A stretch of 21,464 nt of DNA, from the IMG/VR virus record IMGVR_UViG_3300045973_000104, positions 1-21,464 of that record; one strand, written 5' to 3'. The notes under the pieces were generated by a model. That model saw only the letters and a list, made by a program, of their open reading frames with translations, did no database searches and was not told the origin of the DNA. This DNA comes from a virus. The translations under genes were made by a program, and so were the position numbers. This document shows positions 17,363 through 21,380 of this stretch, one piece after another; position 1 is the stretch's first letter; the number at the start of each line of letters is the position of its first letter.

Positions 17363-18673
17363 ATGGCAAGGCGCATTGTAAACGACGGCCAGGAACTTAT
17401 CTATCAGGATCTGAACGATCTTCAGGCTCTTTCGGAGCAGGAGATTTACGATCGCGTCGTTTTCCAGATGCTCCAAAAGGTCGAGAACGCTTTCTTCCAA
17501 GATTCATTCAAGGCTGTTTTTGTTGATGCCACGAACGTAAGTTTAAATGCTGGATTAGGTTTGCAGACTGATGCCACTGTTGCTGCAACTGAGCCACAAA
17601 AACGGCCGATTTTTTCCGCAACATCTCAGACTGTCACTGTCGCAGATCCTGACGGTGTGAATGATCGTATCGACAAAATCGCAGTGAAGGTTGCGCGCGT
17701 CGTCACTGGTACGGATACAAGAAAATATAAGGCAACGATTGGCGGAAGCGTCACGAGCACTGTGTTCAACGTGAAAGACGACTGGTCTAGCGATGTCGTC
17801 GTAGTAACTGGAACTCCTTCGGGATCTCCTGTTGCTCCCGCGACTCCTGCTGGATACTTGGCAGTTGCAACGGTTCTCGTTCACGCTGTCACTGGTCTTG
17901 GTGGCCAGGTCGATATCACCGATCTTCGGTCGCTCATGCCAGTTGGCGGAGCAACGACAGTCAACACGACTGGATACCAAAGACTTCCTGCTGGCGCATC
18001 GACTTCAATCGCTTCTTTGTTTGCTGCGGCTGACGCGCTCCTAAAACAAGGGTACCTGAACTACACTGATTTTGATGATCTTGGAGCTGATCCTGCTGCT
18101 CCAGGAGCATCCAAGGTTCGCGTCTACCTCAAGGGTGGCGTAGCATTCTTGAAGGATTCTTCGGCTGCTGTGACTCCACTTGGCTCTGGTGGTGGTGGCG
18201 GTGGTGGTGGCGAGTGGCATCCAAATGCTATCGCTCCTACTGAAGACACTGAGAATGGCGAACTGGTTTGGATCTTCTCGAAGGCAGACGTAGGGTCACA
18301 AAAGCTCAGCCTGTTCGTAAAAGTCCCACAAAGTTATATCGCTGGTCGTCAAATTCTCATGTTCTTGGGACAATACAGCCCAAGCGCATCCAACACTCAG
18401 CTTTTGTCGACAGTCTCGAGCTTAATCCGAAAGAATCTTGACGCGATTGGATCGACTGCAAATCAACGCACGAGCACGAACTCAGCTCTGACCAACACGG
18501 TTGCAAACATGTATCGCCAGTCGACGCTTGACTTGACCGATGCCACGGGGAAGATTAACGGGTTCTCTGTCTCTCCTGGCGATCTGATTCGTTTGGATTT
18601 GGTTCGCGGAGTGGATACTGACACGGACGATATCCGTTTCGTTCCTTCCGCCACAGAGTTAAAATTTAGTTAA
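17363..18673 (+). CDS. Tail fibre-like or baseplate appendage protein
   Basis: 436 residues. An N-terminal helical anchor (DLNDLQALSEQEIYDRVVFQ, MLQKVENAFF) is followed by beta-rich repeats (NVSLNAGLGLQTDATVAATE, KIAVKVARVVTGTDTRK). Residues 276-283 are eight consecutive glycines coded by a 12-base unit present twice (18188-18211), clearly a flexible linker. The C-terminal domain of ~150 residues (WHPNAIAPTEDTENGELVW, LFVKVPQSYIAGRQILMFLG, ending ATELKFS) may be a jelly-roll receptor-binding unit. It contains no cysteine, unlike the next protein. No chaperone gene follows. Confidence 0.7.
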   Translation: MARRIVNDGQELIYQDLNDLQALSEQEIYDRVVFQMLQKVENAFFQDSFKAVFVDATNVSLNAGLGLQTDATVAATEPQKRPIFSATSQTVTVADPDGVNDRIDKIAVKVARVVTGTDTRKYKATIGGSVTSTVFNVKDDWSSDVVVVTGTPSGSPVAPATPAGYLAVATVLVHAVTGLGGQVDITDLRSLMPVGGATTVNTTGYQRLPAGASTSIASLFAAADALLKQGYLNYTDFDDLGADPAAPGASKVRVYLKGGVAFLKDSSAAVTPLGSGGGGGGGGEWHPNAIAPTEDTENGELVWIFSKADVGSQKLSLFVKVPQSYIAGRQILMFLGQYSPSASNTQLLSTVSSLIRKNLDAIGSTANQRTSTNSALTNTVANMYRQSTLDLTDATGKINGFSVSPGDLIRLDLVRGVDTDTDDIRFVPSATELKFS

Positions 18674-18688
18674 TCGAAAGGGAAGATC

Positions 18689-20503
18689 ATGTTTAAGAAA
18701 ATCATCATCGGTTTATTGTTGGCTCTCCCCGCATTTGCTGCGGATGTCCCTGAGCGCCAAGAACTTCCTGCGGTCAACATGTTGGCCAAGAAAAATCCTG
18801 GCTTTGAGAACGGCAAAGCAAGCTGGTCGGTAAGCGGCGGATCGCTCTCGACAGCAACGAGCGGAGCTAACTTCTACACGGGCGCGGCAAGCGGAGTGTT
18901 CACTGCTTCTGGCTCAGGCCAAATTCTTTCGAGCGCACTCGTTCCAGTGCTGAACGCACCAAACGGTTCTGCAAGTTGCAAAGTAAAGACTGCAGCGAGC
19001 GACTTCGTGCTTCAAGTGTTTGACGGCACGAATGTTCTGGCGGAATCCACGATTGGATCGAGCACTTCATTCAAAACTGCTGTAGCTACCTTCCCAATGC
19101 CAGCAACTGGCAGTATTCGTTTGCGAGTGAAGTCTGCAAGTGCTGCAGCAATCGCACTCGACAACTGCGTGATTGGTGAGAACAAGTTGATCCAGTTGAG
19201 CCAAGCTCAGCACTACGGATCGATGTCCGTTACGAACTGCACTGGTGTAACGTCTTGGACTACTGGCGCGTACCACGATCAAGACAGTGGCGGGACGGCA
19301 TGTACTTACACTGCGACAGGAAAACTATCTGCTCCAGTGGGTGCATTCATGGGTTTCCGCACAGCATTTGAGCCAGGTGAGTATCTGATCACAACCGGTA
19401 ATGCTTCGGAACTCAGCGCATCCGCAGTTATTCTTGGAACGAGAATCAGCAATGGGACGGTGAGTACGAAGAGTCCTACAAAGCAATTGGGCGGATCTGC
19501 TGTCAGTGCAAACTCTGGCGACACTTATTCGTTGACTGTCACATCTCCATTGTCTGCTTCAGATTTTAAATTTCAGGTAAATGTTGCCGCAGGTACCTAC
19601 TCATCTGATACTAGTGGTGCGAACGAGTTTACGTTTGACGTGTACAAGTTCCCTACTCAAGTGGATCAGGCATACACCGCAGGAACAATTGCTCAGGATT
19701 GGAGCGGGAACGTCACCGGTAATACCGGCATTACGTCCGCAACTCCAGTTGACCTTCCAGGGACTCCAACGCTGACAGAGTACTCGAACACGAATGCTGG
19801 AACGGTTACGATTTCAGCAGCTAGTAACGGGTTCACGATCTCTCCTGCTCGCGCTGGAACAGTTGAAGTTTGTCACTCAGGTACAGGTAATTTTTCAAAT
19901 GCCAGCGCCTCTGCAACGATTGGTACCTACAAGAATAGCGTTTTAATGGATGCTGTTCTTGGGATCACGAATAGTACGGCGGGGGGTTCTTTACCTTTCG
20001 GACGATGCTTGCAGACTAAGGTTACCTCGGTTGGATCTCCTCTCGAATTCAAGATTGAAGCATCGATCAACTCAGGCACCTTTTCTGTCGGCGACGTTCT
20101 ATGGACCTTCAAGTATTTGGATCAGCAAGTTCCTGCTCCAGTTCTGGTTGGCTCTGTCATTAGTCCGATTGCTGGTGTTGAGATCCTCGCCAGGGCGTCA
20201 GTTGCTGGAGCTGGCGGCCCAAATACTGCGTGCGTGACAAGCCCTTGCACCGTTCATAGCCAATCTGGATCTTGGATTACTTCTGTTACGAGAACTTCCG
20301 CAGGTGTTTATGTGGTTAACTTTGCTTCTGGTACGTTCTCTGCGTCTCCAATGTGCCAAGTGACTGCATCTGACGTGTCTACGGCAATTTCAGCAAGTCT
20401 TGTAAATACGGCGACATCAAGCCTAGTTGGTGTAGCAGTCTGGAATGGTGTAGGTGCAAACGCCGATGATGCTTTTCAGATTCTATGTATGGGTCCTAAG
20501 TAA
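18689..20503 (+). CDS. Secreted cysteine-rich fibre-like protein with Sec signal peptide
   Basis: 604 residues; function unknown. Residues 1-17 are a clear Sec signal peptide: MFKK, hydrophobic IIIGLLLAL, then PAFA before ADVPE, with an AxA cleavage site after A17. A jelly-roll carbohydrate-binding-like domain follows (KNPGFENGKASWSVSGGS, residues ~35-165), then other Thr/Ser/Gly-rich beta domains. The C-terminal ~90 residues (SVTRTSAGVYVVNFASGTFS) resemble fibre tip domains. Ten cysteines (97, 160, 184, 205, 395, 440, 515, 520, 556, 600) suggest five disulfides formed outside the cytoplasm. ATG 18689 follows AAAGGGAAG. It lies between a fibre gene and a lipoprotein gene. It may be a surface adhesin, a receptor decoy or a fibre added after lysis. 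Confidence 0.8.
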   Translation: MFKKIIIGLLLALPAFAADVPERQELPAVNMLAKKNPGFENGKASWSVSGGSLSTATSGANFYTGAASGVFTASGSGQILSSALVPVLNAPNGSASCKVKTAASDFVLQVFDGTNVLAESTIGSSTSFKTAVATFPMPATGSIRLRVKSASAAAIALDNCVIGENKLIQLSQAQHYGSMSVTNCTGVTSWTTGAYHDQDSGGTACTYTATGKLSAPVGAFMGFRTAFEPGEYLITTGNASELSASAVILGTRISNGTVSTKSPTKQLGGSAVSANSGDTYSLTVTSPLSASDFKFQVNVAAGTYSSDTSGANEFTFDVYKFPTQVDQAYTAGTIAQDWSGNVTGNTGITSATPVDLPGTPTLTEYSNTNAGTVTISAASNGFTISPARAGTVEVCHSGTGNFSNASASATIGTYKNSVLMDAVLGITNSTAGGSLPFGRCLQTKVTSVGSPLEFKIEASINSGTFSVGDVLWTFKYLDQQVPAPVLVGSVISPIAGVEILARASVAGAGGPNTACVTSPCTVHSQSGSWITSVTRTSAGVYVVNFASGTFSASPMCQVTASDVSTAISASLVNTATSSLVGVAVWNGVGANADDAFQILCMGPK

Positions 20504-20515
20504 GGGGGAAGAATT

Positions 20516-20650
20516 ATGAAGATTGTTCTTTTTGTATCATTCTTGGTTCTGAGTTCTTGTTCTTCGGCGATCCTAGTCGAAGACTGCAAGCCGCATCATT
20601 TGACACTCGCCGGTAAAATGGTTTCTAGCTGCATTCCTTTTAAAGAATGA
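20516..20650 (+). CDS. 44-aa predicted lipoprotein
   Basis: ATG 20516 has GGGGGA 6-7 bases upstream. The product starts MKIVLFVSFLVLSSC: a lysine, a hydrophobic run and a lipobox L-S-S-C15, so signal peptidase II should leave a mature lipopeptide of 30 residues. The mature part has two more cysteines (C24, C39). It ends in an ATGA overlap with the holin candidate. Likely roles are outer-membrane spanin subunit (Rz1-like, although it lacks the usual proline richness) or a surface-exclusion lipoprotein; neither is proven. Confidence 0.75.
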   Translation: MKIVLFVSFLVLSSCSSAILVEDCKPHHLTLAGKMVSSCIPFKE

Positions 20651-20886
20651 AGGAAACAATGGTAACGCGCCTCGCCCGCATGGAGGAGCGTCTTGAGTTT
20701 TTGCACCAGAAGTCAGAGGAGCGTCACGTCGAAGTGAAGGCTCTTCTTGAACCACTGGCGCACACTGTCGCGAAGCATAAAACTCTTCACGCTCTGAGTC
20801 GAAACGACAAGCACTGGATGTACGGAATTTCAGTCTTCTTTGGCGGACTAGCTGGCGCTCTCGTCAAGTACTTGCCTAGACCATAA
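20647..20886 (+). CDS. XhlA-like membrane protein, holin candidate
   Basis: 79 residues from ATG 20647 (ATGA overlap), or 75 from ATG 20659, which has AAGGAA closely upstream. The N-terminal two thirds are a charged coiled coil (RLARMEERLEFLHQKSEERH, VEVKALLEPLAHTVAKHK); one membrane segment lies at the end (WMYGISVFFGGLAGALVKYL) before a short basic tail. This is the layout of XhlA-type proteins, which work with a holin in host lysis. Position shortly before an amidase gene fits. Whether it is the holin or an accessory is unclear. Confidence 0.7.
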   Translation: MKETMVTRLARMEERLEFLHQKSEERHVEVKALLEPLAHTVAKHKTLHALSRNDKHWMYGISVFFGGLAGALVKYLPRP

Positions 20887-21044: not shown

Positions 21045-21380
21045 ATGTTGAATGCAATGTTGAAACCTATCGTTAAGGCTCTCGTAGACGGCGAAAAAGC
21101 AGTTGCTGCTGGAATTGCAAAAGATTGGTCTGCTCTTGGTCAAGCTGGTGTTGCTGTCCTTATGGACATCCCTGCTTTGATCGCTGGCGCGCCACAGTTT
21201 GAAGCCGATCTCCAAGCCTTGCTTGTTGATCCTGCCGCCGATGCTGACCTTTTGGCTTACGTAGTTCTGTCTCTCGAAGGACAAGACGAGAAAGCCAAGA
21301 AGATCATTGCCGCTGCTGCTGACCTCTTGCTCTCCACAGTCGTGAAGACAAAGGTCTTGGTCGAAGCCGTCAAATCGTGA
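21045..21380 (+). CDS. 111-aa Ala/Leu-rich helical protein of unknown function
   Basis: ATG 21045 with AAAGGA 9 bases upstream. All-helical composition, rich in Ala, Leu and Val: KPIVKALVDGEKAVAAGIAK, then WSALGQAGVAVLMDIPALIA (hydrophobic with one Asp), then an Asp-rich loop and two more helices to the end (KIIAAAADLLLSTVVKTK). It may associate with the membrane but has no clear uncharged span of 20. It lies between the holin candidate and the endolysin gene, whose GTG overlaps its stop (GTGA), so it may join lysis or its timing. Confidence 0.7.
   Translation: MLNAMLKPIVKALVDGEKAVAAGIAKDWSALGQAGVAVLMDIPALIAGAPQFEADLQALLVDPAADADLLAYVVLSLEGQDEKAKKIIAAAADLLLSTVVKTKVLVEAVKS

Follow-up and report, generated by a model that had tools for sequence, protein, structure and literature searches.

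The virus DNA analysed here encodes, beside a virion fibre gene, a 604-amino-acid protein that appears to be a detachable adhesive tip, one produced in another compartment than the virion itself. In the textbook view, phage fibres assemble in the reducing cytoplasm. The 604-aa protein, which we call the NPG protein, is encoded in the tail operon beside the fibre and is built of adhesive modules of tail-fibre type, but it departs from a cytoplasmic virion fibre by an export signal and paired cysteines. An exported, disulfide-bonded, fibre-like family, fixed beside a virion fibre in many lineages, would amount either to a novel way of maturing virions or to a novel kind of adhesin exported by phages. 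We favour a split, two-compartment tail fibre, an explanation to which we give slightly less than an even chance.

The window, that is, the whole stretch of 21,464 b, is an IMG/VR virus record with tail sheath and baseplate J genes upstream (Table 1). A 30.8-kb sister contig (L002), carrying an ORF identical to the 604-aa ORF, runs on into an Amidase_3 gene. The window junction is therefore one from tail genes to lysis genes. The 436-aa fibre matched PHROG 3398 ("virion structural protein," 4e-7), and its N-terminal part is kept in all J-type relatives. Its C-terminal (CT) domain was modeled by AlphaFold2 (AF2) with a pLDDT of about 95; compared alone with PDB structures, this domain gave no confident match.

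Table 1. Features of the window around the exported gene (coordinates in the window)
Feature	Position	Strand	Basis or remark
436-aa virion fibre gene	17363..18673	+	N-terminal baseplate-attachment part, Gly-rich linker, C-terminal CT domain
CT domain (aa 282-436), beta-rich, conserved	18206..18670	+	Alignment A1, 21 copies; proposed dock
604-aa exported, disulfide-rich, modular adhesin-like NPG protein	18689..20503	+	ATG; signal peptide, ten paired Cys, 38/38 CT loci
Sec signal peptide MFKKIIIGLLLALPAFA	18689..18739	+	Sequence; family has signal peptides at same place
Domain 1 (aa 25-166), "NPGFENG" CBM-like jelly roll	18761..19186	+	AF2 and VIA
Domain 2 (aa 174-321), TNF/C1q-like, Bd2734-tip homologue	19208..19651	+	VIA, family profile
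Domain 3 (aa 337-476), beta-rich, Cys395-Cys440 pair	19697..20116	+	AF2 strands; Cys pair co-conservation
C-terminal domain (aa 498-604), ends ..ILCMGPK	20180..20500	+	AF2 pLDDT >90 over most; alignment A2
44-aa lipoprotein, candidate o-spanin-like outer-membrane lysis protein	20516..20650	+	Lipobox VLSS/C, +2 Ser
79-aa coiled coil plus C-terminal TM segment, lysis-cassette candidate	20647..20886	+	Sequence
111-aa ORF	21045..21380	+	Sequence
Amidase_3 endolysin gene	starts 21377	+	Continues in L002

The 604-aa protein begins with MFKKIIIGLLLALPAFA/AD, comprising a K-rich n-region, a hydrophobic core, and an AFA cleavage site. Its ten cysteines all lie in the mature part and fall into five pairs (97-160, 184-205, 395-440, 515-520, and 556-600); the 436-aa fibre has no cysteine. 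Across 26 aligned proteins, both members of a pair were present in 78 cells of the alignment and only one in 3, counts that come from related, nonindependent sequences and from a pairing chosen by inspection. The number of cysteines was even in 32 of 38 mature proteins. This paired gain and loss, as read from the alignment, fits folding in an oxidising compartment. A sequence-only reading of the same DNA had described an exported, disulfide-rich, fibre-like protein at a tail/lysis junction, with a clear signal peptide (AFA/AD) and ten cysteines next to a fibre lacking them, and each of these points is borne out by the sequence, the recurrence of the signal in the family, and the Amidase_3 gene downstream.

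Searches of Pfam and PHROGs (E<=0.1) placed the 604-aa protein in no family, and three scattered weak Pfam matches each occurred in a single member of its family. The AF2 model (26 sequences; mean pLDDT, 75; pTM, 0.40) shows beta-rich domains one after another, with unreliable relative positions. By VIA, domain 1 matched the porphyran-binding CBM 8xmz (Z, 16.9; rmsd, 2.1; 131 aa) as well as many CBM4/16/22/61 structures, with which it shares its fold; the window protein has no Pfam match or enzyme domain. The C-terminal domain is conserved in much of the family, and homologues carry Laminin_G_3 and tail-collar domains.

Domain 2 matched 8okw, the C-terminal domain of Bd2734 from the predatory bacterium Bdellovibrio bacteriovorus (VIA Z, 15.3; rmsd, 2.5; 142 aa; 17% identity). 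From sequence alone, the family profile found 8okw with an E of 2e-19 over 139 residues, and single homologues within a small set of phage ORFs reached an E of 6.6e-24 against the Bd2734 tip in pairwise comparison; the window protein itself gave no pairwise sequence match to 8okw. Judged by profile and predicted fold, domain 2 and the tip of Bd2734 are homologous. The predator has 21 MAT (mosaic adhesive trimer) proteins, which are exported as fibres and contribute to prey recognition; Bd2734 belongs to them, carries a TNF-like tip, and when deleted causes slightly slower predation (PMC10769870). Through this homology, phage genes and predator adhesive fibres are connected at the level of sequence, which opens a direct test of the origin of the MAT repertoire.

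Relatives were gathered in three ways. Baseplate J led to 13. Where these have downstream sequence, the fibre gene is directly followed by one for a signal-peptide protein in L043, L046, L047, L048, and L051, whereas L042, L044, and L049 have no such protein after the fibre gene. The motif NPGFENGxxxW, taken from the 604-aa protein, was found in 38 IMG/VR stretches, and in about twenty of these the protein opens with a signal peptide with the motif shortly behind. With a single exception, every exported NPGFENG protein open to such a check has a CT-domain gene on its upstream side, adjoining except in L003; these partner genes end in a homologue of the last ~155 aa of the window fibre, which is the CT domain. 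The CT domain alone (~150 aa) fetched 39 IMG/VR loci, 38 of them with downstream sequence. A homologue of the 604-aa protein lay downstream of CT in all 38, a set that includes a few near-identical contigs, and 37 of the homologues had an evident signal peptide. In L188 the NPG-type protein was visible only on reading the frames, and in L195 one ORF separates the CT gene from the NPG-type gene. In both L003 (10012-10821) and L195 (5479-6288), a 269-aa ORF occupies precisely this position, flanked by the CT fibre gene on one side and the exported gene on the other; by eye it resembles a homing endonuclease of the GIY-YIG type.

We scored signal peptides with a crude rule in the 35 nonidentical CT-fetched loci, where 34 downstream proteins could be scored. 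The rule was passed by 29 of these 34, compared with 2 of 102 upstream ORFs (minimum length, 150 aa). Of the five that failed, four resemble signal peptides by eye, and the fifth, L194, truly lacks one. The sequence-only reading had suggested checking homologues for signal peptide and synteny, and both are found: the signal recurs across the family and the upstream CT neighbour is constant. It had also named homologues without the signal, occurring as ordinary virion fibres, as evidence against its reading. One of the 38 (L194, 5456-7486) lacks the signal, and the other 37 carry it; the cysteines of the L194 protein are odd in number, five in all.

Many CT/exported gene pairs have a 4-base overlap of the ATGA type. 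CT is joined to many different, unrelated fibre N termini, so what is kept is CT with its exported partner and not one phage lineage. Mean identity was 40% for CT, 29% for domain 1 of the exported protein, and 19% for its remainder, as expected if the exported protein faces receptors. Distances of CT and NPG domain 1 across loci were uncorrelated in a mirror-tree comparison (r=0.10; permutation p=0.16), which gives no signal of co-evolution. In L043, L046, and L051 the exported protein is present and CT is absent. In a few phages a signal peptide also opens the CT protein (L003/L195, L025, L037/L192, and probably L022/L197). In fibre-like proteins of L025 (5181-6701), L037 (9836-11974), and L003 (6851-10001), a typical fibre N terminus directly follows a signal peptide. 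The phage of L025 has a second CT copy ~15 kb away (L215, 572-1977), with its own signal peptide and preceded by a signal-peptide protein built of typical tail-fibre repeats.

In the split fibre that we favour, the 436-aa fibre would be built into the virion in the cytoplasm, with the conserved CT domain at its end. The 604-aa protein would be translated beside it, exported by Sec, and folded and disulfide bonded in the periplasm, and would supply variable carbohydrate- or receptor-binding modules. At lysis, the exported adhesin would meet the virion, dock on CT, and complete the receptor-binding apparatus; we infer this docking, its timing, and the receptor-binding role. Linkage, export signal, paired cysteines, and module homologies are read from the sequences themselves. 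The constant CT neighbour across phage types, the translational overlap, the adhesive modules, the greater variability of the exported partner, the paired cysteines, and the small number of integrases in relatives' records count for this explanation. So does fibre length in the J-type lineage, a comparison of about ten genomes: the fibre is short (287 to 436 aa) where the exported protein is present (the window, L015, L043, L046, L047, L048, and L051) and long where it is absent (L042, 569 aa; L044, 653 aa; L049, 743 aa). The long fibre of L042 has a tail-collar domain, and that of L044 has a weak propeller-like match. Against the split fibre stand the lack of a co-evolution signal, the exported proteins without CT, L194 without a signal, and the signal peptide on the CT protein of a few phages, which a cytoplasmic virion base leaves unexplained. 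A more far-reaching version, in which virions are completed outside the cytoplasm and phages of predatory bacteria export the receptor-binding half of the fibre through the Sec/disulfide machinery of the host, attach it at lysis, and share tips with the predator's prey-recognition fibres, is speculative, and we doubt it more than we believe it.

The main rival, to which we assign a clearly lower probability than to the split fibre, is an adhesin on the host surface or released from it that masks receptors, thereby blocking re-adsorption of progeny or superinfection, and never enters the virion. Such a protein would need the signal peptide, would sit naturally next to the lipoprotein and lysis genes, and would be in keeping with the export of the CT partner in a few phages; lambda Lom, an exported outer-membrane beta-barrel from the tail gene region, provides a precedent (PMC12309495). 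However, masking leaves unexplained both the constant CT fibre domain upstream and the absence of the exported protein in long-fibre relatives, and the 604-aa protein has no membrane anchor besides the cleavable signal. Its AF2 model, a chain of small beta-rich domains, contains no transmembrane beta-barrel of the Lom type. An adhesin role and attachment to virions after lysis, both suggested by the sequence-only reading, are among the live readings.

The homology of domain 2 to the MAT tip raises another alternative, that the phage encodes a MAT-like predator adhesin, displayed on the infected Bdellovibrio-like cell in the way that the predator carries MATs, its exported surface fibres (PMC10769870), which would alter prey attachment to the benefit of the phage. 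We consider this unlikely: the predator host is only putative, the domain behind the signal is CBM-like, whereas the one at the N terminus of MATs is reportedly without PDB homologues (PMC10769870), and translation together with a virion gene implies expression late in the lytic cycle, most records being without an integrase. A Phage_integrase domain was present in 6 of 36 relatives' records. The scarcity of integrases and the late, coupled position of the gene speak against a role confined to lysogeny, and lysogenic conversion as a general role is unlikely on the same grounds, with the qualification that the records may be fragments. A last alternative is that the protein is a cytoplasmic virion fibre of the ordinary kind and that its hydrophobic N-terminal stretch does not serve as a signal. 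This would agree with its modules of fibre type and with L194 but is highly improbable, given that signal peptides of varied sequence recur at this position in 37 of the 38 loci and that cysteines come and go in pairs.

T4-type fibres with separate adhesins encode the receptor-binding part separately, adjoining the fibre gene. To our knowledge, two-component fibres, LtfA/LtfB as well as those of T4 type, are made and joined in the cytoplasm and lack signal peptides. LtfA/LtfB of DT57C is a two-component tail fibre (PMC4728585); like the CT/NPG pair, it has its receptor-binding part encoded separately beside the fibre gene. Lambda Lom resembles the NPG protein in being exported and encoded in the tail gene region (PMC12309495), but it is an outer-membrane beta-barrel expressed in lysogeny, whereas the NPG protein is made of soluble modules of beta-sandwich type and is linked to a fibre domain. 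MAT fibres (Bd2734, 8okw) share with the NPG protein Sec export and a modular, phage-fibre-like build, and most homologues of domain 2 have a cysteine pair matching that of the Bd2734 tip. Unlike a MAT, the NPG protein is encoded in a phage tail operon beside a virion fibre and has no evident beta-helical stalk; the homologue of the interchangeable adhesive MAT tip is internal, in the middle of the protein, whereas in Bd2734 the tip is C terminal. After the signal, the NPG protein has a CBM-like domain with many PDB matches (Z to 16.9), an indirect contrast with the conserved domain of ~130 aa that MATs are reported to have at this place, described as lacking PDB homologues (PMC10769870). Exported tail-region phage proteins such as Lom, split fibres, and MATs are each already known; in the open-licence literature we found no description of a protein family that is exported by Sec and constantly adjoins a domain of a virion fibre.

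The host is probably a Bdellovibrio-like predator, as judged from the tip homology only. A CT profile found no match in about 1,500 genomes (Myxococcota, Pseudomonadota, Bacteroidota, Desulfobacterota, and others), a set outside which Bdellovibrionota fall, so that this null result shows little about the host. Among the matches listed in a motif scan of genomes, the loci inspected mostly held secreted proteins with the CBM motif and gave no host clue. INPHARED phages had no match to the 604-aa protein, the CT domain, a homologue, or the Bd2734 tip, and plasmids had none to the Bd2734 tip. The partner protein of L033 matched cultured phages in its N-terminal attachment part only.

The sequence-only reading had correctly noted a lipobox-bearing 44-aa lipoprotein, whose ORF starts 12 bases after the stop of the 604-aa ORF, and had joined the two proteins into one exported module. 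This pairing was rejected as a conserved unit. The lipoprotein lies directly 3′ of the exported gene in only a few loci and one gene further in L037 and L194, it is present without the CT domain in L051, and in the window it is coupled by an ATGA overlap to the next gene, for the 79-aa coiled-coil/TM protein. By gene order, the conserved partner of the 604-aa protein is the CT domain of the upstream fibre, not the lipoprotein. The lipoprotein is better read as part of a putative lysis cassette and is possibly a spanin; the lipobox and the ATGA overlap are present in the pair, and the TM segment of the 79-aa protein is at its C terminus, unlike that of an i-spanin. Its mature part has three cysteines, and small lipoproteins with a similar cysteine pattern occur in L037, L051, L184, L190, L194, and L200. 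A further cysteine-rich ORF of 199 aa, exported or lipoprotein-like, lies 3′ of the amidase gene in L002 (11242-11841), and an ORF in L015 (1-600) is weakly similar to it (9e-4).
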